Below, piece by piece: positions 8,065 through 18,118 of a stretch of 64,000 nt of DNA. The stretch comes from Flavobacteriales bacterium (lineage in GTDB: Bacteria > Bacteroidota > Bacteroidia > Flavobacteriales_D > Sanyastnellaceae): the NCBI GenBank assembly GCA_018402085.1, contig JAGYJM010000002.1, positions 3,177,501 through 3,241,500 on the forward strand, read 5' to 3'. The first letter of the stretch is position 1; every line of letters starts with the position of its first letter. The notes under the pieces are model-generated. The model saw only the letters and a program-made list of their open reading frames with translations, ran no database searches and was not told the DNA's origin. The position numbers and the translations under genes are program-made.

Positions 8065-8447
8065 TGCATGATGCACAATTGCTGATTGGCGATTTATGAG
8101 TGCCGATTGCTGATTTCAAAGAAACGTCCAATCAACACAGGGAGGGGCTTGTTGCCACAACAAGATCAACAATATGCAGCCGCCCCCTCCAAGGGGAGCT
8201 CCCGAGACCGCGCAGCGGTGCTCGGGTGAGGGGTGGTGGTGCTCTTCCGAAACAACCCCATCAACCTCTCAGTCCACCGCTTTCGCGGTGGCCAGCTCTG
8301 CTGAGATCCGGAGAGCCTTGATTGCCCTTAACAAATCAGCAATTTGAAATCGCTAATCTGCAATCATCAATATTAAGTCTCCCCCAAAATGAGGGGAGAC
8401 GTCAACCGTTCCACGGTTGACAAGGGGTGTTTACCAATCATTATTCA
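8065..8447. repeat. Intergenic hairpin-repeat block (family A)
   Basis: No gene is seen. 8179-8240 carries CCCCTCC, AAGGGGAGCT and CCCGAG-acCGCGCAGCGgtg-CTCGGG, then GTGAGGGGTGG. 8377-8400 forms GTCTCCCC/GGGGAGAC, and 8401-8421 forms GTCAACCG/CGGTTGAC. The same plan (CCCCTCACCCG, variable stem, CGGGAG, CCCCTaa..ttAGGGG) recurs at 46395-46470 and 46681-46755. A CCACCGC-TTTC-GCGGTGG hairpin is at 8274-8291. Confidence 0.65.
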
Positions 8448-9389
8448 TTACTCACTATTCACGCTTCTTACCGCGAGTTTTTCCATGTCATAATGCTTCC
8501 TGAAAAACTCATCGCACCACAGGCAGATGTTCTCTAATTCATTGGTGCGTTGCTGTGCGTATTCAGCGCTGATACCGATGCTTTCACCCATGGTGATGGG
8601 ATCGCCTTCATTCAGCTTTTGCATGATCGGGTCATCGGCGACGCGGGTGAGCACGTCGGCCACTTTCTCGCGGCGGGCGTCGCCCATGGGCTGAATCGTT
8701 CCCGGACAACACGGATTGATGGCCCACAACTGAATCGAGATCTCTTGCGGAATGCCCTCTGCACCGGTTAAGAAGCCGATGCCGCCCGAAAGCACCGCGC
8801 AAAAGTTGTGGTTCGGATCGCGCTTCCAGATGTTTTTCTGCATAGCGCGTCCGCGGGCCCAGTTGCCGCCCAGCCACATGTCTTCTGTCGCGCCCCAGTG
8901 GCCCCAGCTCAAGGGTTTCTTGGTGAGGTAGGTGTCAATCTGAATCAGCGGGTCTTTGTCATCACCGTTCACGCCGCGTGAGGCGAACAGTTCGGCGAGT
9001 TGATCCAGGCGCTTTCCGGCGTGCTTGTGGTAGCGGTCAATGCTGGCGATGTCGAAACGGGTGACGCCTTTCTCAATCAAAGTGTCAAGTCGCTCTTCGT
9101 TCAAAAGGTCGCCGTTGGTTTGCAGCATGATCTGCGTGCGGTCGCCGTACTTTTCTTTCAGCGCATCGAGGATGGCATAAAGCTTCCAGCGCTCGGCCAG
9201 CGGCTCACCACCCGATAAGATGATGCGGTCTGGGTAGTCAGGCAGGTTTTCTACAATCTGCAGGCACTCTTCTGTAGAGATGCGCGCCCCTTGCGGACCG
9301 CTCAGATTGTAGCAGTGATCGCACTTGTCGTTGCAGAGCTGCGTAAACACCCAGTAAATCGATTCAATATGGTTGAAGTCTTTGTTCAT
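8448..9389 (-). CDS. Radical SAM enzyme with C-terminal cysteine clusters
   Basis: 313 residues. The [4Fe-4S]/SAM motif is C19-x3-C23-x2-C26 (CNDKCDHC), and ILSGGEPL is the GGE motif that binds SAM methionine. Cysteines in the C-terminal half (FCAVL, NPCCPG, NICLWCDEF) could hold an auxiliary cluster, as in SPASM/Twitch enzymes. The substrate is unknown. The start lies one base after the stop of the ABC ATPase gene, making it the last gene of the TonB receptor-ABC operon. The context suggests it modifies or processes what the transporter brings in. It is not a close match to any radical SAM subfamily I can name. Confidence 0.85.
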   Translation of the reverse strand: MNKDFNHIESIYWVFTQLCNDKCDHCYNLSGPQGARISTEECLQIVENLPDYPDRIILSGGEPLAERWKLYAILDALKEKYGDRTQIMLQTNGDLLNEERLDTLIEKGVTRFDIASIDRYHKHAGKRLDQLAELFASRGVNGDDKDPLIQIDTYLTKKPLSWGHWGATEDMWLGGNWARGRAMQKNIWKRDPNHNFCAVLSGGIGFLTGAEGIPQEISIQLWAINPCCPGTIQPMGDARREKVADVLTRVADDPIMQKLNEGDPITMGESIGISAEYAQQRTNELENICLWCDEFFRKHYDMEKLAVRSVNSE

Positions 9390-9390
9390 G

Positions 9391-10122
9391 TCATTTCAAG
9401 TTAGTCCAGAAAGCCGCCTCCCGCCCTACTCCACTGCGTGGGTCTTTCCGAAAGGCCTCCAAATCTGTGAATACGTCCAGCTTGCCGTCTTGCATGTATC
9501 CAAACCGGTCGCCTGTGAGCAGCGCCTCTTTCACGTCATGCGTGATAAACAGCGCTGTAATGTGGTAATCCGCAGCCAGTCGCTTGTACAGTTGCTGCAT
9601 CTCTTCGCGCGTGCCTGCATCCAGACTACCAAAAGGCTCGTCGAGTAAGACGACTTTCGGACGTAGAATCAGTGCTCTTCCAAATGCTACACGCTGCTTT
9701 TGGCCGCCCGAAAGGGCGGGAGGCCTCTTGCTGCGGTGATCCGCAAGATCAAGTGCTTCAAGCATTTCATTCACCCGCTGCGTGCGCTCGGATGCGTTCA
9801 CTTCGCTCCTACGTCGTTTCAACGCCAATCCGAAGCCGATGTTCTCTGCTGCGTTCAAATGATCGAAAAGCGAGGGCTCCTGACTAAGGTAAACGATGTT
9901 GCGCTCTTCTGTCGCGAGGGTGTGCAGGGGCGCTCCGTCAAACGCTACTGAACCCTGGTCGGGTTGCTCGAGCCCTGCGATGCATTTCAGCAAGGTGGTC
10001 TTACCGCAGCCCGATGCGCCCAGCACTGACAGGGTCTCACCCTTGTTGAGCGATAGGTGGATGCCTTTCAGTATCTCCTGTGCGCCGTAACGCTTATGTA
10101 TCGAGTCAACGGTTAAGCCCAT
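9391..10122 (-). CDS. ABC transporter ATP-binding protein (YnjD-like)
   Basis: 243 residues from MGLTVDSIHKRYG. Walker A GASGCGKTT (~35-43), Q-loop YLSQEPSLF, signature LSGGQKQR, Walker B VVLLDEPFGSLDAG and H-loop ALFITHDV are all intact. It drives uptake through the two permeases encoded immediately upstream, whose nearest gene it overlaps by 17 bp. The family resembles ATPases of the iron/thiamine/polyamine class and E. coli YnjD. In the signature region the DNA forms CCGCCC-GAAA-GGGCGG, but this is explained by the conserved protein motif. Confidence 0.9.
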   Translation of the reverse strand: MGLTVDSIHKRYGAQEILKGIHLSLNKGETLSVLGASGCGKTTLLKCIAGLEQPDQGSVAFDGAPLHTLATEERNIVYLSQEPSLFDHLNAAENIGFGLALKRRRSEVNASERTQRVNEMLEALDLADHRSKRPPALSGGQKQRVAFGRALILRPKVVLLDEPFGSLDAGTREEMQQLYKRLAADYHITALFITHDVKEALLTGDRFGYMQDGKLDVFTDLEAFRKDPRSGVGREAAFWTNLK

Positions 10123-10870
10123 CTGCAATGCGAATCTTTCGTGTGAAAAGGAGGAAGAATACCGGCGGCAACACCAGCAAGCAACACGCCACAGCGGCCA
10201 TCGAGCGGTTGCCTTCAAGCGTGAACTGCAAAACACTTGTCGTTAGGGTGCGCACCTGGCCCACACCTAGCAGCTGTATCAATCCGTACTCAAACCACGA
10301 GAACAGAAATAACTGAACGAGCGAGAGCAGTATAGTCGGACGTGCCGCCGGACGATGAATACGCCACAATCGCTCGCTCACCGAGGCCCCAAGGGTGCCC
10401 CCCGCATCATCAGTCACCTTGCGGTCGGCGGTCCAGAAGGTGCTGAAGAGAATGAAGCTGTACGGTGTGGCAATGCACAGCTGCGCGAGCAAGACGCCGC
10501 CAAAGGAGGCGGTGAGTCCGCTCCAGGCGAAGTAGAATTGCAGGTTCGCAGCGCTGATGACCGGGGCCGTGCAAAAGGGTACCAATGCCAACCACAGAAT
10601 CAGTTTTCGGCGCCGCGATCGCAAGAGCAACCAACCGGTGAAAAAACCTAGTACCGTGCCCACAACCGCAACCGCAACCGCAAGAATGACCGAGGTGAAA
10701 ATGAGCGCCCCAAGCCCATCCGGACGTACGACCGATGCCCAGTTGCGCAGCTCCCATTCGGGCAGCACGGAAGGGTAAGCCCACTGCCCGGCGAACGACA
10801 GCATCAGCAACACTGCCAGAGGCAGTGTGTACACGATGAAAAGCAATCCACGGGTGAGTTTAACGTCCAT
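10106..10870 (-). CDS. ABC transporter permease (C-terminal YnjC-like half)
   Basis: 254 residues, about six hydrophobic helices. An EAA-like cytoplasmic loop is seen around DAGGTLGASVSERLWRIHRP. In E. coli the YnjC permease is a single ~510-residue protein with two such units; here the units are two overlapping genes. It overlaps its upstream partner by 11 bp and the ATPase by 17 bp, so translational coupling is likely. Confidence 0.82.
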   Translation of the reverse strand: MDVKLTRGLLFIVYTLPLAVLLMLSFAGQWAYPSVLPEWELRNWASVVRPDGLGALIFTSVILAVAVAVVGTVLGFFTGWLLLRSRRRKLILWLALVPFCTAPVISAANLQFYFAWSGLTASFGGVLLAQLCIATPYSFILFSTFWTADRKVTDDAGGTLGASVSERLWRIHRPAARPTILLSLVQLFLFSWFEYGLIQLLGVGQVRTLTTSVLQFTLEGNRSMAAVACCLLVLPPVFFLLFTRKIRIADGLNR

Positions 10871-11696
10871 AGTTGCGGTTCAAAGGTTGTACAATTACCA
10901 GCGCAAATCCGGCAATGAAGAGCGCCCATAAAGCCGACAGCGCATACCCTTCCGGAATGCGTGCGAGACTGTACCCACGGAGTTTGTCGATGATTTCAAC
11001 GCTCATCGGTCGCAGCGATTGCGATCCGAGCAGCAACGGCACTTCGTACGTGCCCAGCACGAAGACGAACCACACAATGATCAACGTGATGTTGCGCCGC
11101 AGTACCAGGGGCAAAAACAACTTGAAAAAGCGCTCTCCTGCAGATGCACCGAGGGTGCGCGCAGCATCGAGCTGAACCGTAACATCCCGCCGGGAGGCGG
11201 AAAGCAAAAAAAGCACCGTGAAGAAGGCAAATGACAAAAGGGTGTGCGTCAAAAACACGGCAATCCCCAGCGGATCGCTCACCAGAGTGGGAAAATCAGA
11301 CGCGCTATTGATCACGCCGATTGAAGCCAGGGTGCGCGAGAGCAGACCGGTGTCTGACAAAAAGTGAAAGCCGAAGAAAGCCGCTACAATCGGGGGCATC
11401 GCCAGGGGTAGAAAGAACCATGAAGGCAGTACGCTGCGTCGCTGCGTGAAGAGCACGCGCAACACCATGAAGGCCAGCGCCGCCGCCGTGAGGGTGGCTC
11501 CACTTGCCAGCAACAGGGTGTAGCCGAAGCTCTCTGCAAAGCGGCCGGTGCTGAAAAGGGCGGCGAAATGGTCAGTTGTAAAACCGTCAGATTTAAACCC
11601 GACGAGGCCCAGTCCGTTCAGCAACGCATACCCAATACCCAGCCATGCGGGCAGAGCGATAAGGAGGATGAACAGAATGAGGGCCACTTTTCTCAC
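10860..11696 (-). CDS. ABC transporter permease (N-terminal YnjC-like half)
   Basis: 278 residues with about six membrane segments, the first at residues 5-28. An EAA-type loop is visible in LDAARTLGASAGERFFKLFLPLV. It starts on the ATGA overlap with the stop of the binding-protein gene. It pairs with the next permease to form the membrane pore of the uptake system. Confidence 0.85.
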   Translation of the reverse strand: MRKVALILFILLIALPAWLGIGYALLNGLGLVGFKSDGFTTDHFAALFSTGRFAESFGYTLLLASGATLTAAALAFMVLRVLFTQRRSVLPSWFFLPLAMPPIVAAFFGFHFLSDTGLLSRTLASIGVINSASDFPTLVSDPLGIAVFLTHTLLSFAFFTVLFLLSASRRDVTVQLDAARTLGASAGERFFKLFLPLVLRRNITLIIVWFVFVLGTYEVPLLLGSQSLRPMSVEIIDKLRGYSLARIPEGYALSALWALFIAGFALVIVQPLNRNYGR

Positions 11697-12946
11697 TGCG
11701 CTTCAATCACGTAGGTTCTGAAATCTTCGTAGAGGCGGATCATGTACTCCGGCGCCGGCTCCTGAATCGCATTCTGCTCGAGCACTTCGCGCGGGGGCGC
11801 ATAGGTGCGCTGATCAAGTGAGTCAACCTTTGCCTGCATTTCAGCCGGCAACTTTGAACGGTCAAGCACGGTACCGTCGCCCCAGACTTTCGGGTCTGCC
11901 TTGCGCAGTTGTGCTTCAGGTGAAATGAGGAAATTCACCACGGCCATGGCTCCGGCCTTGGCCGCACTGTGTTCAGTAATGCCCATGTAGTGGCTGTTCT
12001 GAATGGTGCCGCTCTCAAAGGTATACGCACGACTGCTCTCCGGCAGGGTGCCGTTGATGACTTTGTTTTCGACCTCGCCGTCGTTGTTGCTCATCGTGAA
12101 CCACAGTTCGCCATTGCTGAAGAGCTGGTGCATCGGCGCAACGGATGCCGGAAAGGTGCGCCCCTCGCGCCAGAAGTACTGCTTGTTGCGGTTGAGGTAC
12201 TCCCAGAGTTCTTTCGAGAGTTGCTCATAACGCGCTTCATCAAACTCCCCGTCAAGTGAATGCGGATCACCGGCAAGGTTGGCCAGCATTGACTTCAGCA
12301 AGGTCATCCCCGTGAAGTCGGTGGGGATGGTAAACTTACCCGGGTGTGTACGCACCCACTCCTGCAGCTCTGCAAGGTTCTGCGGCGGCTGCGCCACATG
12401 ATCACTGTTGTAAATCAGGCAGAGTTGCACGTTGCCCCATGGACATTCATACCCCTCTGTCGGTTGCTGAAAATCGGTGTTAATGAAGGGGTTGTCGAGA
12501 TCGAGGTAGCGGCTGTTGGGGAGCGCGCTCACGAACGGCCCGTACAAGGCGTCCATCTCGCGGAGCTGGAAAAACGTCTCGCCGTTGATCCACATCAGGT
12601 CAATGTCGCTTTCACTGACCTGCGCCTGCTGCTCGGCAAGCAAGGTCGACACAATCTGGCTGCCTTGTCCGCTTGAGATTTCGAGGTTGACGCCGTACTG
12701 CTCTTTGACCATCGGCGTCACGTAGTCGCTCATGTAGTCGTTGATCAGCGGGTCTCCTTGCCACATCATCAGTTGAACGGTCTGACCCTTTGCGCGCGTA
12801 AGCACAGAATCCCACGGCAGGGCGGTCAGGTCAACCGACGCATCCGCCGCTCCCGATAGCGATCGGGATGCGGCGTCTGAAGAAGCATCACTACCACACG
12901 AGGTAGCGAAAATCACGAACAGGAGGGCGAACAGGATATTTTTCAT
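11693..12946 (-). CDS. ABC transporter substrate-binding lipoprotein (YnjB-like)
   Basis: 417 residues from MKNILFALL, with lipobox FATSC (Cys17). The body is a family 1 periplasmic binding protein. Stretches such as MMWQGDPLINDY and DLMWINGETFFQLRE closely resemble E. coli YnjB (COG4134), whose substrate is not established. A six-residue-longer start at 12964 exists but would spoil the signal peptide. A composite hairpin element is read in frame at residues ~24-36 (A-A-S-R-S-L-S-G-A-A-D-A), in the tether between the lipid anchor and the folded domain. It starts 14 bases after the TonB receptor stop. Confidence 0.88.
   Translation of the reverse strand: MKNILFALLFVIFATSCGSDASSDAASRSLSGAADASVDLTALPWDSVLTRAKGQTVQLMMWQGDPLINDYMSDYVTPMVKEQYGVNLEISSGQGSQIVSTLLAEQQAQVSESDIDLMWINGETFFQLREMDALYGPFVSALPNSRYLDLDNPFINTDFQQPTEGYECPWGNVQLCLIYNSDHVAQPPQNLAELQEWVRTHPGKFTIPTDFTGMTLLKSMLANLAGDPHSLDGEFDEARYEQLSKELWEYLNRNKQYFWREGRTFPASVAPMHQLFSNGELWFTMSNNDGEVENKVINGTLPESSRAYTFESGTIQNSHYMGITEHSAAKAGAMAVVNFLISPEAQLRKADPKVWGDGTVLDRSKLPAEMQAKVDSLDQRTYAPPREVLEQNAIQEPAPEYMIRLYEDFRTYVIEAQ
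12841..12875 (-). repeat. Composite (nested) hairpin-GATG element in a lipoprotein tether
   Basis: Outer arms CGCCGC/GCGGCG followed by GATG on the minus strand. The loop holds a second hairpin, ATCCCGAT-CGCT-ATCGGGA. It is sense to the gene and uses the same reading frame as the simple coding copies. Confidence 0.75.
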
Positions 12947-12960
12947 GCTACGAAGTTCGG

Positions 12961-15957
12961 TCAAAAGGTGTAACGCAGGCCGAATTGGAACTGGCGTGGT
13001 GGTGCCGCGTTGCGACGAACGAGCAGCCCGCTGTCAGCCGGACCGACCTGGATCTGGTTGCTCTGCGTGGCGTTGTTGCTGTACCCGCTGAGATTCTCGG
13101 CGTTGAGTGCGTTAAAAACCGATGCGGTGATAGCAATGCGCTGGCCTTCGGCAATCGGAATGTTGTACTGCAGGTTGACATCGAAGGTCGTGCTCCACGG
13201 CAGGCGGTCGCTGTTGCGATCTTCACCCGGTGCGCGGTCACTGTTGCCTACGTAGGCATCTCCGAATGAGCGTCCGTCGCCGTTAAGGTCGGTCGTGCCG
13301 TATAAGGTCGCATCCGGAATACGATTGATCGGCTGGCCGCTCTGCAGCAATGCCGCCAATGTCGCCGAGAAGTTGCGTATCGGATACCAGGTCAGGAAAC
13401 CATTGATCATGTGGGTGCGGTCGTTGATCGATGGACCCCATTCGTTGTCGAAGTTGTTGGCATCCATCGCGCGGAAGTTGATGTCTTCTGTGTTGTTTTC
13501 GAGACGTGACAAGGTGTACACCAAGCGATACGAAACCTTGTCTTCTCCGCGGTCTTTGTTCAGTGTGAAACTCGCAGCCCAGTAACGTGAACGACCGGCT
13601 GCTTCGGTCATCATCACGTTGCGCGAAATGCCGCGGAGGGTGTCGCCCTGCACGATGCTGTAGATGCCGTTTTCGTCATTGAAAATCGGCACCGGACGGG
13701 TTAGGTCGGCTTCGTCTTGCGGACGAACCTCTACGTTATCAGGGTCAATCGGGTAGGCCTCAGGCGCATTCAAATCGCGCAAGCGGAAGAGGTTCTCACT
13801 CTGGTTGTGCACGAGGTCAACGTAAAACAAGGTGTTGTCGTCAATCTGGTACTGGTAGCCGAGTGTGAACTGGTGCGAGTACGGATTGTCATACCCGTTG
13901 GGATTGAGAATGCGCAGCTCGTTCTGAAAAATCTGCTCGCGTTGATCCTGCAGCTCACTTGCCAGCGGGCCATCGAGGTAATCGACGTTGCTAACGTTGG
14001 CGGCTACGTTGCCCGCGTTGGTGACCGCTGCAATGTCGGTGTCATCCGGCAGGATACCGAGGTTGACCAGCTGCGCCACCTGTGTTTGGTAGTCAGCAGA
14101 GTTCGAGTTGAATTGCAACGCGTCGCTGTAAATGGCGTAGAGCACTTTTTCGTAGAAGAGTCCGTACCCACCGCGAATGGCACTGCGCGGACTCAATTTA
14201 TAGTTGAAGCTGAGGCGCGGTGCGATGTTGTTCATATCGCCTTCATCGCCGGCGCCCACGCTGAGGTCGTCGTAATCATAGCGCACACCGAGGTTCAGGT
14301 TGAGGCGCTCGTTGACATCGATCTGGTCTTCGAAATAGACGCTGTAGATGTTCTGCGTGCCGTCGAAAGCACTTTGGCGCAGCTCAACGGCGTAGTTGAG
14401 TACTTCAGCGTCTGACGGAATGGCTCCCGCACCGAGGTCTGCCCCCGGATTGGTCGCTGCCAGCGCAGTGAGTTGATCTTGTGTCAGCTTCACCGTGTAA
14501 CTGCCATTCGGATTGCCTCCGCCAAACAGCGAGAAGGTGGATGCCTTCACCTGCGCCCCGGCTTTCAGGGTGTGACGGCCTTTGTAGAAGGTGAACTTCT
14601 GGTGAAGTTGCTGGGTGTTCTCCAGTTCTCTGAAGCGGAAACCGGGGTGACCGAGCACGGCAATGGTCTGCTCTTGCGGGTCCAGCACGCTCACGTTCGG
14701 GTCATCGGGGTTGTTCGGGTCTGCGTAATCCCACAAAAAGCGACCGTAGAGGTAGTTGGTTTCCGAGACCCAATCATCGCCGAAATACGAATGGCGAAAC
14801 GCTACGTTCAGCGAGTTACGGGTTTGCGTGTTGCCGGCAGAGTTGAAGGTCACTCCACCGTCAAGTCCGCCGCCCTGACGCTCGATGCCAACCAGTCCGG
14901 CATTTACGCGAAGCATCGACTGGTGACGATCACTCCAGCGGTGATCAATGCGGCCTGAGAGGTAGGTAAATTCGTTTTGCCCGCGCACGGTCGTGTTAAC
15001 GCCGAGCTGCGGCGAGTTCAGCAGGTTGTCTTTGATGTCGCGGGTGTACTCGGCATTGATGTAGTAAAAGGTCTTGTCTTTGACGAGTGCACCTCCGAGG
15101 CCAAATCCTGCCTGGTGGCGTTGAAAGCCGTCTTTGACCTGGTTACCTGAAAGGTCGCGTTGTGCGTAGGGTGACTCAGCGTCTAGCACCGCTCCCGGAC
15201 GGGTCAGGTAGAAAACTTCACCCGTTTGTTCGTTGCTTCCGCTTTTAGTGGTGATGTTGATGACCCCGTTGGCCGTGAGTCCAAACTCTGGTGAGAAGTT
15301 GTTCGTAAGCACTGTGATGTTGTCGGTAAAGCCCACGGGAATTGCGAAACGTTGTCCGCCGAGAAAGTTCTCGTTGTTGTCCATCCCGTCGATGAGGTAG
15401 TTCGTGAAGAGCGGATTGGCGCCGTTGATGGCGACATTCGGCGCTTCGGGATAGAATCCGGTGGCTTGCGTGATGTTGGGCAGACGGTACAGCGCACGCG
15501 TGATGTCGCGCCCTTCTATCGGCACTTCTTCGATTTCGCGGGCACTTAAACTGCTGGCCACCTCGGCGTTGCGCGTGTTGAGTTGCGTTACGAGGTTGCG
15601 TCCGCTGCTGATCGTCGCGGCCTCGAGTTCAACGCTTTGCGATTTGTAAATCAACAGACTCACTGAAGCGCTCTGGTTTACACGTACATTCACATAGCCC
15701 GTATCTACATTCGTATATTCCGGGTGCGCCCCGATGTACACGCGATAGCGTCCGGCGCGTGGCACATTGAAGCGAGCCTTTCCACGTTCATCGCTGGTAC
15801 GCTGTTGTTTAAATCCGCTTTCTTGTTGATCAATGATCACGTCTACATCGCTCACCGTCTCGAGCGAAGTGAGGTCATACAGCTGGATGGTAACATCCGA
15901 TTGGGCCAGGGCGGTGAGGTTCAGCACCACGAGGGCCATAACAATGAGGTTTTTCAT
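12961..15957 (-). CDS. TonB-dependent receptor with N-terminal carboxypeptidase-regulatory-like domain
   Basis: 998 residues from MKNLIVMALVVLNLTALAQ (signal peptide). An upstream extension to 16044 is leader, since it runs through repeat DNA. Residues ~20-110 form a CarboxypepD_reg-like beta-sandwich, then a plug domain (VPIEGRDITRALYRLPNITQA, NYLIDGMDNNENFLGG, VINITTKSGSN), then a ~22-strand barrel ending in RYTF, a terminal-Phe beta-signal. It imports a ligand through the outer membrane with TonB energy. Being first in the operon with the YnjB-like ABC genes implies a full two-membrane uptake route for one substrate. No SusD partner is present, which argues against glycans. Confidence 0.92.
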   Translation of the reverse strand: MKNLIVMALVVLNLTALAQSDVTIQLYDLTSLETVSDVDVIIDQQESGFKQQRTSDERGKARFNVPRAGRYRVYIGAHPEYTNVDTGYVNVRVNQSASVSLLIYKSQSVELEAATISSGRNLVTQLNTRNAEVASSLSAREIEEVPIEGRDITRALYRLPNITQATGFYPEAPNVAINGANPLFTNYLIDGMDNNENFLGGQRFAIPVGFTDNITVLTNNFSPEFGLTANGVINITTKSGSNEQTGEVFYLTRPGAVLDAESPYAQRDLSGNQVKDGFQRHQAGFGLGGALVKDKTFYYINAEYTRDIKDNLLNSPQLGVNTTVRGQNEFTYLSGRIDHRWSDRHQSMLRVNAGLVGIERQGGGLDGGVTFNSAGNTQTRNSLNVAFRHSYFGDDWVSETNYLYGRFLWDYADPNNPDDPNVSVLDPQEQTIAVLGHPGFRFRELENTQQLHQKFTFYKGRHTLKAGAQVKASTFSLFGGGNPNGSYTVKLTQDQLTALAATNPGADLGAGAIPSDAEVLNYAVELRQSAFDGTQNIYSVYFEDQIDVNERLNLNLGVRYDYDDLSVGAGDEGDMNNIAPRLSFNYKLSPRSAIRGGYGLFYEKVLYAIYSDALQFNSNSADYQTQVAQLVNLGILPDDTDIAAVTNAGNVAANVSNVDYLDGPLASELQDQREQIFQNELRILNPNGYDNPYSHQFTLGYQYQIDDNTLFYVDLVHNQSENLFRLRDLNAPEAYPIDPDNVEVRPQDEADLTRPVPIFNDENGIYSIVQGDTLRGISRNVMMTEAAGRSRYWAASFTLNKDRGEDKVSYRLVYTLSRLENNTEDINFRAMDANNFDNEWGPSINDRTHMINGFLTWYPIRNFSATLAALLQSGQPINRIPDATLYGTTDLNGDGRSFGDAYVGNSDRAPGEDRNSDRLPWSTTFDVNLQYNIPIAEGQRIAITASVFNALNAENLSGYSNNATQSNQIQVGPADSGLLVRRNAAPPRQFQFGLRYTF

Positions 15958-15971
15958 TGAAGTGTTTTGGT

Positions 15972-16006
15972 CGGCGTATCCCGATGGCATTCGGGAGCGC
16001 CGGATG
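15972..16006 (+). repeat. Composite hairpin-GATG element upstream of the TonB receptor
   Basis: Outer arms CGGCG/CGCCG followed by GATG; the loop holds TCCCGA-TGGCAT-TCGGGA. It lies 15 bases before the receptor start codon, so it would be in the mRNA leader (antisense orientation). Confidence 0.7.
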
Positions 16007-16028
16007 AGGTTTACTGAAAGAATGAGAG

Positions 16029-16046
16029 GGATGCGTACTCGCATCC
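16029..16046. repeat. GGATGCG/CGCATCC hairpin (family F)
   Basis: GGATGCG-TACT-CGCATCC, preceded by GAGAG. A second copy with the same flank is at 46558-46576. Confidence 0.55.
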
Positions 16047-16055
16047 AAAGAGAAA

Positions 16056-16757
16056 TCAGGCCGCCTGAGGGGGACCACGCAGGATGTGCGCCGCATGGGC
16101 CACTGCATCCGGAAGAAGGATGTCGTTTTGAACACTGAGAGGTGCTGTGGTTTCAAGCGCTTTTTTCAGGCGCAAAAGCGCCTGGATGCGTCGGTCTGTC
16201 GTGTTTTCAAGTGCAAATGCCCGGAGGTCATGGTGCGTGTTGACATCCGCCGCTTTTGCGGCGAACAAGAGCACAGCCCCCGTCTGCTGCAACTGCGCCG
16301 TCAACGCTGCGTGCACGCGCGACGAATGCCACGGAATGACAGCAAAGTCGAGTTGATTGAAGGTCTCGCGATCGAGTCCGATCAGCCAATCGCCACCGCG
16401 GCGGTCGGGACCCAGAATGGCCGACTGACCGGCATCGGGCAGCGCATCGATGGACTGCTGAAGCAGCTCAGGACGGCACTCGGCGCCATCGGCACCGATG
16501 AGCAGCACGCGGTCGAAACCGGCTGCGAAGGTGTCTTGAAAAGCGTTGTGGAGCCGCTCAGCGAATGAACGTCCACGCTGCTTTTCCGTATCAATCACCA
16601 CCACCGGCAGTCCACTTTGCTGCGCTGCTTCGAGCGTCTGATGTTGCAAATGCGCCACCAATCGCTCATTCGCCACCTGCGAGAGGTGCGGCAACACGCG
16701 CTTGCGTCGGGCATCTTCGCGAGCAGTGCGGGTGAATATAGCGAGGGCAGTACGCAT
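16056..16757 (-). CDS. DUF2064 / rSAM-selenodomain-associated transferase 1-like protein (degenerate)
   Basis: 233 residues from MRTALAIFTRTAR. The fold matches the GT-A/CofC-like family TIGR04282: RRKRVLP corresponds to the KTRL segment, LLIGADGAECRPELLQQ to the IGTDCPxLxPELL segment, and LGPDRRGGDWLIGL to the GPxxDGGYxLIGL motif. The usual DCP and DGGYY residues are altered (DGAECRP and RRGGDW), so activity is uncertain. Members are known as partners of radical SAM proteins, which agrees with the rSAM gene at the end of the downstream operon. Two hairpin-GATG elements are embedded. The start avoids repeat DNA upstream. Confidence 0.75.
   Translation of the reverse strand: MRTALAIFTRTAREDARRKRVLPHLSQVANERLVAHLQHQTLEAAQQSGLPVVVIDTEKQRGRSFAERLHNAFQDTFAAGFDRVLLIGADGAECRPELLQQSIDALPDAGQSAILGPDRRGGDWLIGLDRETFNQLDFAVIPWHSSRVHAALTAQLQQTGAVLLFAAKAADVNTHHDLRAFALENTTDRRIQALLRLKKALETTAPLSVQNDILLPDAVAHAAHILRGPPQAA
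16167..16189 (+). repeat. Hairpin-GATG element in the DUF2064 gene (antisense)
   Basis: Seven-pair arms CAGGCGC/GCGCCTG around AAAA, then GATGC; six T precede it. The gene reads I-Q-A-L-L-R-L through it. Strict member. Confidence 0.75.
16244..16263 (-). repeat. Hairpin-GATG element in the DUF2064 gene (sense)
   Basis: CGCCGC-AAAA-GCGGCG-GATG on the minus strand, encoding F-A-A-K-A-A-D. Strict member, only ~55 bases from the previous copy. Confidence 0.75.
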
Positions 16758-16909: not shown

Positions 16910-18118
16910 GTGCAAAACGACTACATTCGTGTCTGCAATAAAAGAATCGTGGACACACTGTACCAAAAATACCGGCTGCTCTTGCAGCAAACTGACCTAA
17001 GCTTTAAACGTTATCTCTACGGTGAGATCGATTGGAGCAGCCGTATGGTAGGTATTGTTGGTCCGCGGGGAGTGGGAAAGACCACACTGATTCTCCAGTA
17101 TATCAAAGAGCACCTGGATGCAGATAAAGCACTCTATGCCACAGCAGACGACCTGTTTTTTAGTGAAAGCCGCTTGTATGATCTTGCTGACGACTTTTTT
17201 AAGCATGGTGGCGAAGTGCTGTTTGTGGATGAGATCCATAAGTACCCGGAGTGGTCGAGAGAATTGAAGAACATTTACGATTCGCTGCCCGGATTGAAGC
17301 TGGTCTTCACGGGGTCGTCTGTGCTAGATATCCTGAAAGGGTCATCAGATCTGAGCAGACGGGCGGTTATGTATGCCTTACAAGGACTTTCTTTTCGGGA
17401 ATATCTGCAGCTATATCATGGCATAGAACTGGGAGTCTCCGACCTGGAAAAGGTAATTCAGCATCAAGTGGAATGGCCTGAAGGAATCCGGCCGCTTCCC
17501 TTATTCGATGACTACCTGAAGCGTGGTTATTACCCATTCGGTATCGAGGGTCAGCTCACGCTGCGGTTGAGTCAGATCATCGTGCAAACGCTTGAATCAG
17601 ATATCCCACAGTTTGCGAATTTGAATGTGAGCACCGCCCGGAAGCTGAAACGGCTGCTCGGGATTATTGCTGAAAGCGTGCCGTTCAAACCGAACTTCAC
17701 AAAGATTGCATCTATTATTTCAGTCAGCCGTAACTCCCTCGACGACTATCTCGCATACATGGAAAGCGCTGGACTCATCGCGCAATTGCGGAGCGGAACT
17801 TCCGGTATCCGCGGTCTCGGAAAGGTCAGCAAGGTCTACCTCGATAACACGAACATTGCTCATAACCTACAGCCTGAGTCGCCCGATAAGGGGAACCTCA
17901 GAGAGACCTTCTTTTACAATCAAATGCGATTGAAATACCGGGTTGAGGCCGCCGATAAAGCTGACTTTAAGCTTGAAGATTACACCTTCGAGATCGGCGG
18001 AAAGAACAAGAAGCAATCACAGATCCATCAAGACGGCAGGTCGTTTATCGTAAAAGACGACATCGAATTCGGTTATCGAAATGTGATTCCCCTCTGGGCG
18101 TTCGGACTGACGTATTAG
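16910..18118 (+). CDS. AAA_14/DUF4143 family ATPase
   Basis: 402 residues. No usable in-frame ATG exists upstream, so I place the start at GTG 16910; an ATG at 16876 is out of frame and soon stops. Walker A GPRGVGKTT (~51-59), Walker B VLFVDEIHK and sensor-like LVFTGSS belong to the AAA_14 domain. The C-terminal ~170 residues are DUF4143, which often has a winged-helix and a restriction-enzyme-like fold. Such orphan ATPases are scattered in genomes and are commonly transferred; the molecular role is unknown. No partner gene is adjacent and repeat DNA follows it. Confidence 0.85.
   Translation: MQNDYIRVCNKRIVDTLYQKYRLLLQQTDLSFKRYLYGEIDWSSRMVGIVGPRGVGKTTLILQYIKEHLDADKALYATADDLFFSESRLYDLADDFFKHGGEVLFVDEIHKYPEWSRELKNIYDSLPGLKLVFTGSSVLDILKGSSDLSRRAVMYALQGLSFREYLQLYHGIELGVSDLEKVIQHQVEWPEGIRPLPLFDDYLKRGYYPFGIEGQLTLRLSQIIVQTLESDIPQFANLNVSTARKLKRLLGIIAESVPFKPNFTKIASIISVSRNSLDDYLAYMESAGLIAQLRSGTSGIRGLGKVSKVYLDNTNIAHNLQPESPDKGNLRETFFYNQMRLKYRVEAADKADFKLEDYTFEIGGKNKKQSQIHQDGRSFIVKDDIEFGYRNVIPLWAFGLTY

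Follow-up and report, generated by a model that had tools for sequence, protein, structure and literature searches.

A DUF2064 protein with arrest-peptide-like sequence features at the head of an operon for a TonB-dependent receptor, a YnjBCD-type transporter and a radical SAM enzyme

Gene order at the locus and its distribution

The window, by which the whole analysed stretch of 64,000 nucleotides from a Flavobacteriales bacterium is meant (assembly GCA_018402085.1, contig JAGYJM010000002.1, positions 3,177,501 to 3,241,500), carries on its minus strand an array of seven genes, read from 16757 to 8448, in which a DUF2064 gene is followed by genes for a TonB-dependent receptor (TBDR), an ABC transporter of the YnjBCD type and a radical SAM (rSAM) enzyme (Table 1). 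The DUF2064 protein, here called the leader, bears near its end a motif known from ribosome arrest peptides and is the main subject of this account. The original prediction, made from the sequence alone, had described six tightly packed genes with a DUF2064 gene just upstream, and both statements hold: 14 bases separate the TBDR and ynjB genes, the next three junctions are overlaps of 4 bases (ynjB and permease 1), 11 bases (the two permeases) and 17 bases (permease 2 and ATPase), and a single base lies between the ATPase and rSAM genes. The 98 bases between the DUF2064 and TBDR genes are thus wider than all other junctions (1–17 bases). Gene starts were moved to ATG codons fitting the relatives; one permease keeps its GTG.

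Table 1. Features of the operon in the window (aa, amino acids; nt, nucleotides)
Feature	Position	Strand	Remarks
DUF2064 leader gene, 233 aa	16056..16757	-	GT-A/nucleotidyltransferase-like domain and C-terminal tail; PF09837 62.9 bits, TIGR04282 80.4 bits
R-G-P-P arrest-like motif	16068..16079	-	residues 227-230 of 233; codons CGT GGT CCC CCT
Leader-TBDR intergenic region, 98 bases	15958..16055	-	stable hairpins; 161-nt fold (15930-16090) z-score -3.1
TBDR, 998 aa	12961..15957	-	PF25183, PF00593, PF07715; signal peptide-like start
YnjB-type substrate-binding lipoprotein	11693..12946	-	NF008633 399 bits, cut-off 203
Permease 1 (YnjC N-half equivalent)	10860..11696	-	permease-family matches below cut-off only; gene order
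Permease 2 (YnjC C-half equivalent)	10106..10870	-	BPD_transp_1 PF00528
ABC ATPase (YnjD-like)	9391..10122	-	ABC_tran PF00005
rSAM enzyme	8448..9389	-	PF04055
Terminator-like stem, 9 pairs	8377..8400	-	3' of the rSAM gene

Close relatives of the rSAM enzyme were found in seven of the 200 genomes searched (the source genome and six at 68–79% identity); the two genomes of the same genus gave no match, and 12 other matches were weak (E 7e-8 or worse). The module is patchily distributed, as would be a horizontally moved one. Gene order is the same in the six relatives, which come from whole genomes; one of them (L025; such labels denote fetched loci, while G007 and G026 are genomes in the search sets) has no DUF2064 gene, and in another (L022) the contig stops beyond the first permease; the rSAM enzyme is the best conserved protein across the six. 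When the rSAM alignment was run against species genomes, it gave 130 relatives, the best 80 of which were kept and make up, with the window, a set of 81 loci. Judged by record title, the relatives are mostly from Bacteroidota, and also from Chlorobiota, Ignavibacteria, Kapaibacterium, and Acanthopleuribacter and Sulfidibacter, both of which we take to be Acidobacteriota; single metagenome-assembled genomes are titled Armatimonadetes, Thalassovita and Gammaproteobacteria.

With genes scored at any place in the fetched locus, the full ABC set is present in 67 of the 81 loci (in 66 on the rSAM strand), a TBDR homologue in 57 and DUF2064 in 49. Sixty-four loci have at least 9 kb of upstream DNA, and 56 of them hold the whole ABC set, together with DUF2064 and TBDR (38), TBDR (11), DUF2064 (5) or alone (2); the remainder have DUF2064 and TBDR (3), part of the ABC set (1) or none of these genes (4). 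That the receptor and the YnjBCD-type transporter are coupled to the rSAM enzyme, as proposed for the window, is real and widespread; the rSAM gene is far from being unlinked in all relatives, and the linkage of the array is far beyond chance. In L066, L070, L073 and L091 the rSAM gene stands by itself, with no receptor, transporter or DUF2064 homologue in the fetched locus. In L069 (Hymenobacter sp. BRD67) the TBDR and ATPase genes are each split over two frames, which may reflect a decaying copy or sequencing errors.

The leader: domain, tail and the genes that follow it

The window DUF2064 protein scores below the curated cut-off of TIGR04282 (80.4 versus 134 bits), a family named arsenosugar biosynthesis glycosyltransferase. 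For comparison, 31 canonical DUF2064 proteins were assembled, one from the source genome and 30 from relatives (one of the 31 is cut by a contig end), and set against 84 unique proteins with a tail, that of the window included. A KTR sequence in the N-terminal loop is found in 28/31 canonical proteins and in 0/84 tailed ones; by column, K, T and R occur in 100%, 94% and 100% of the canonical set and in 2%, 0% and 24% of the tailed family. Other family residues are kept in the 84 tailed proteins, namely the G and D of GxD (100%), a Q (96%) and a W (99%). An AlphaFold model of a longer 275-aa open reading frame (ORF) for DUF2064 has a mean confidence (pLDDT) of 84.6, with a confident domain and a tail of low confidence; its nearest solved folds are 3cgx, the best PDB match (a putative nucleotide-diphospho-sugar transferase), and further a 3-phosphoglycerate guanylyltransferase together with Rv2983. 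Retention of family residues together with loss of the KTR loop fits binding without catalysis, and the leader is best read as a probable pseudo-enzyme with a CofC-like nucleotidyl- or glycosyltransferase fold. It thus shares the domain family and several conserved residues with canonical DUF2064/TIGR04282 proteins and differs from them by the missing loop, the added tail and the score under the cut-off. No paper on DUF2064 was found in a search of the open-access literature. A second DUF2064 gene of the source genome (L107) is canonical; its neighbours are presumably rhodanese-, purine nucleoside phosphorylase- and DUF547-like genes.

The first sign of a special tail came from an alignment of five DUF2064 proteins, in which the C-terminal part was poorly conserved save for R-G/A-P-P near the stop codon. 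Ribosome arrest by RAPP and RGPP has been shown experimentally, the arginine was irreplaceable in mutated arrest peptides, and in many bacterial phyla RGPP is reported to be excluded more strongly than any other tetrapeptide (PMC12992588). The RGPP of the window leader stands three residues before the stop codon, and the leader is the only protein with R[AG]PP among 41 ATG-started ORFs of at least 200 aa in the window. R[AG]PP is present in 63 of the 84 tailed proteins (RGPP 34, RAPP 29), a near variant in 16 (KGSP 7, KAPP 5, RGSP 2, RSPT 1, RPPP 1) and neither in five; clustering at 50% identity leaves 55 clusters, 40 of them with R[AG]PP. From the composition of the tails the motif would be expected by chance in about 3e-4 per protein. 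It is absent from all 31 canonical proteins.

The motif is not confined to one sample. Among the DUF2064 entries from rSAM loci, R[AG]PP lies within the last 30 residues in 42/53 (38/49 without duplicates); eight of the others end in KAPP, PAPP, RGSP, RPPP or RSPT, and three (L046, L069, L092) have no motif. Thirteen further stretches with lower-scoring DUF2064 proteins were fetched, and R[AG]PP is present in all eight complete operon-type proteins outside rSAM loci and in L154, which is the G026 operon copy and lies on a different contig; it is absent from the low-scoring, canonical-like proteins of L151–L153, and L149 is cut. A search through 395 genomes of the phylum gave 34 full-length matches, including the window and G007, and all 30 of those examined end in [RK][AGS][PS]P (19/30 in R[AG]PP). 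The tail N-K-G-S-P occurs in L157, L160, L164, L165, L168, L171 and L172, all of one search family (f17); KGSP is possibly a lineage-specific arrest motif.

Between domain and motif there is almost no conservation. Pairwise identity stands at 36% for the domain and 73% for the motif; for tail positions 224–267 it is 13%, and for positions 247–267, where composition alone predicts 6.8%, it is 8%. The 63 cases of R[AG]PP use all six Arg codons and, at both Pro positions, all four Pro codons; the use of every synonymous codon implies that selection acts on the peptide and not on the RNA. The distance from the domain end (residue 220 of the 275-aa ORF) to the motif is 41–51 residues, with a median of 45, in the 79 proteins with a motif. 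By a crude measure of hydropathy, 82 of the 84 tailed proteins have no strongly hydrophobic N-terminus (hydropathy >1.6 in 2/84), and a hydrophobic stretch anywhere was seen in six, the window protein not among them; by the same measure the window leader has neither the signal sequence nor the transmembrane segment that would mark it as a monitor of Sec or YidC (SecM-type). In sequence, the leader looks like an arrest peptide joined to a putative pseudo-enzyme domain.

Within 1.8 kb downstream on the same strand, the best match behind the 84 leaders is a TBDR/SusC gene in 72, an AhpD-ArsS pair in six, ynjB in five (L106, L146, L162, L167, L180, where the leader precedes ynjB instead of a receptor) and a contig end in one, so that an importer or AhpD-ArsS gene follows co-directionally in 83/83 testable cases. 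In L098–L101 and L103 the leader is placed after the rSAM gene, ahead of a SusC/SusD pair (SusD-like_2 in Pfam, 279 bits in L098 and 310 bits in L103), and in L143 and L144 ahead of SusC/SusD and a protein with weak matches to sodium/solute symporters (32 and 47 bits; cut-off 184). The earlier statement that no SusD is present is right for the window copy; some relatives have the SusC/SusD pair instead. The leader of L142 heads a TBDR gene, a methylthioribose (MTR)-kinase-like gene and a nucleoside hydrolase gene, and in L145, L148 and L150 the leader is followed by an AhpD-type gene and by arsS (442, 443 and 442 bits; cut-off 300); in L145, the one locus in which it was scanned, the AhpD-type protein matches TIGR04169 with 187 bits (cut-off 120). 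L177, L183 and L184 resemble these loci by neighbourhood, not by family scan. In these varied surroundings the leader thus tracks the importer or ArsS, and not the rSAM gene. The view that DUF2064 is a mere radical-SAM-associated neighbour does not survive, as the protein is below the TIGR04282 cut-off, has lost the KTR loop, bears the arrest motif and also precedes other importers in genomes that yielded no close rSAM.

Could the DUF2064 protein be a working enzyme of the pathway, with its R[AG]PP tail serving another purpose such as docking to a partner? Its place in the operon and its several retained family residues would agree with this, as would the five loci in which it precedes ynjB. 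We nevertheless hold it to be very unlikely: the KTR loop is missing throughout the tailed family, the tail is near random in sequence yet nearly fixed in length, retention of the most excluded tetrapeptide for docking is hard to expect (PMC12992588), and several operons have no DUF2064 gene.

Transporter, rSAM enzyme and the putative substrate

The transporter is related to that encoded by E. coli ynjABCD, with which it shares the YnjB family, the ATPase and the order B-C-D. YnjC is a single protein in E. coli (1536-base ynjC, NC_000913), where the window has two permease genes, and the ynj neighbourhood shown in NC_000913 has, unlike the window, no TBDR, rSAM or DUF2064 gene. Neither sequence nor profile comparison with the PDB gave a relative of YnjB with a solved structure, which could have supplied a ligand.

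The rSAM enzyme has additional conserved cysteines; in an alignment of 52 sequences C197, C227 and C228 are invariant, and C289 and C292 are present in at least 90%. The nearest solved fold to its model (pLDDT 87.7) in Foldseek is BtrN (TM-score to target 0.61), then EpeE, with SpeY at rank 13. In the light of these folds and of the additional cysteines, the enzyme may have a C-terminal auxiliary Fe-S domain of the SPASM/twitch type. An assignment to a curated equivalog was rejected, all listed profile matches being far below their cut-offs; the nearest are a mixture of maturases and tetrapyrrole enzymes. Likewise rejected was identity with ArsS (TIGR04167), for which the best match in the source genome reaches 31 versus 300 bits and lies at another gene; that genome gave no ArsS match above the cut-off.

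Accessory genes give hints at a substrate. By clustering, a nucleoside hydrolase (PF01156) and an APH protein (one of each was scanned) accompany the operon in seven rSAM loci, and they also occur in L142 and L146; the APH protein has methylthioribose kinase as its nearest family (118 bits, under the cut-off of 275). An ArsM-like methyltransferase is encoded within the operon of L052 and beside that of L082 (190 and 221 bits, below the cut-off of 263), and ArsM above the cut-off together with an ArsR/SmtB regulator is found near L061, L064 and L082, with ACR3 near L061. Methylthioribose and dimethylarsinoyl-ribose may be parallel compounds. These neighbours, and ArsS behind a like leader, suggest a riboside; speculatively, the substrate would be a riboside or 5-modified ribose, perhaps arsenical or of the arsenosugar type. 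No paper linking arsenosugars and TonB was found in the open-access literature search.

The original prediction had proposed salvage of a cofactor or metallophore, and a reading of this sort, in place of a riboside or arsenical, could draw on the co-occurrence of TBDR and rSAM genes, on the lack of a YnjB relative in the PDB and on the maturase and tetrapyrrole profiles nearest to the rSAM enzyme, distant as these are. It is considered rather unlikely, since the nucleoside hydrolase and MTR-kinase-like genes, the ArsM, ArsR/SmtB and ACR3 genes and the sharing of the leader with AhpD-ArsS loci all speak for another kind of compound. For a modified peptide or a metallophore nothing in the analysis offers support; the accessory genes point to ribosides.

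Other recurrent neighbours may be mentioned. Two proteins of about 215 aa lie beside the rSAM operon (e.g., L067:7899-8552, L093:8599-9252), each in 23 loci and both in 22; one of each was scanned and gave no Pfam or NCBIfam match, and presumably they resemble class I amidotransferase-type folds. A protein of 125–133 aa with a CxLC motif (L106:15657-16034, L098:16559-16960) occurs in 12 distinct loci (13 entries, L025 and L057 being the same), and the one scanned had no family match. An AAA_14/DUF4143 ATPase is encoded at 16910-18118 of the window, divergently from the leader gene, and similar proteins are found in L063, L101 and L152.

A possible mechanism and known arrest systems

Taken together, the operon is read as a module for import across the outer and inner membranes and for processing, whose first gene would be a regulatory leader with an arrest-type tail that gates the importer (with a probability of roughly 0.7). 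The leader would consist of the DUF2064 pseudo-enzyme, a linker of about 45 residues, i.e., of tunnel length, and the C-terminal R[AG]PP. When a pathway metabolite is scarce, the ribosome would stall at the two prolines, and the stall would keep the receptor, transporter and rSAM genes on, either by leaving the next start region open or through a block of termination. With the metabolite at hand, its binding would be to the DUF2064 domain just beyond the exit tunnel; folding of the domain would then pull the chain free, translation would be completed and the importer turned down, comparable to what is proposed for copper and CruR. Speculatively, the metabolite may be the compound that TBDR-YnjBCD imports and on which the rSAM enzyme acts. 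More generally, and with slightly less than an even chance, the system might be a “protein riboswitch”, in which a catalytically disabled paralogue of a pathway enzyme acts as co-translational metabolite sensor and its ligand-dependent folding at the tunnel exit, at a near-fixed 45 residues from R[AG]PP, determines across Bacteroidota how strongly the ArsS pair and the TonB/SusC importers, which are interchangeable, are expressed.

How a stall might act on the mRNA was approached by folding. Masking the footprint of a stalled ribosome raises the accessibility of the next start by a mean of 0.062, versus 0.015 (standard deviation 0.005) for shuffled footprints (n = 66). The idea that all loci share a SecM-like hairpin from the motif to the start of the receptor gene was rejected: the signal is significant on average but weak in most loci and nil in the window. 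A terminator-like stem over the last codons of the leader (16068-16056) was also discarded, as such stems are near chance in this region (14 versus 10.2, standard deviation 3.7). With Rfam gathering thresholds, the window gave no match to a known RNA element.

Several observations weigh against the regulatory reading or narrow it. Opening of the start is not general, the gain exceeding 0.1 in 19/66 loci (6.1 with shuffled footprints), and the window itself shows no pairing of footprint and start, which makes a block of termination, as in CruR, an equal option there. The 30 loci of the phylum search were chosen by full-length match to a profile containing the tail, which favours tailed proteins, and the 84 sequences share kinship, so that counts are not independent. 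Lysine replaces arginine in 12 of the 84 (KGSP 7, KAPP 5); the window protein has arginine. Segment lengths within the folded domain are likewise near constant, and constancy of the spacing is informative chiefly in view of the nearly unconstrained sequence of the tail; helices of the model extend to residue 246 of the 275-aa ORF, so part of the “linker” may belong to the domain. Seven loci (L025, L028, L038, L043, L056, L087, L095) have a TBDR gene but no leader, with 1.6 kb of sequence available upstream. The substrate is the weakest part of the account, and the link to arsenic depends on a small number of loci and on what the families are called.

An alternative is a tail that stalls ribosomes with a DUF2064 domain that senses nothing, the stall or slow termination merely coupling translation of leader and receptor, or answering a general cue such as the state of the ribosome. 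An arrest motif and this gene order need no ligand, and a helix after the domain could by itself give the near-fixed spacing; for mere coupling, however, a bare short leader would suffice, and the domain is kept with its GxD, Q and W while the KTR loop is lost, which makes this alternative unlikely. The sensing leader is therefore preferred. If true, the “protein riboswitch” would amount to a ligand-gated arrest peptide that occurs in nature, is portable and has a folded, enzyme-derived sensor; it would give one branch of DUF2064 a role, and a ligand shared with the pathway would be a handle on the substrate of the YnjB-type transporter. The Discussion of PMC12992588 leaves open which force releases arrests of the RAPP type outside protein secretion, and also if, and by what route, they control the genes downstream. 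The leader family, with its soluble domain at a nearly constant distance from the motif, comprises 55 clusters and stands upstream of importers of several kinds; it would make this question directly testable.

The closest parallel is CruR, a DUF2946 upstream ORF (uORF) ahead of the gene for BfrG in Bordetella pertussis, with which the leader has in common R[AG]PP near the stop and an adjoining TBDR gene (PMC9426467). Arrest of CruR in vitro and RAPP-dependent control of the receptor gene are experimental; copper on the nascent CXXC relieves the arrest, followed by Rho termination ahead of the receptor gene (PMC9426467). The spacing is alike as well, 45 residues between CXXC and RAPP in CruR (PMC9426467) and a median of 45 between domain and motif in the leaders. 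CruR is, however, predicted to be exported and poorly structured and senses copper by its CXXC (PMC9426467), whereas the leader has a folded DUF2064 domain and no CXXC. Membership of the leader in the CruR/DUF2946 family was rejected: the window protein has no DUF2946 match, and CXXC is found in 0/84 tailed proteins. With ApdA, ApdP and ApcA and with the surveyed RAPP/RGPP uORFs, which are known upstream of TBDR genes among others, the leader shares the motif, its C-terminal site and the place upstream (PMC12992588). Almost all of the uORFs surveyed ahead of TBDR genes have predicted signal sequences (PMC12992588), unlike the great majority of the leaders with their N-termini of low hydropathy.

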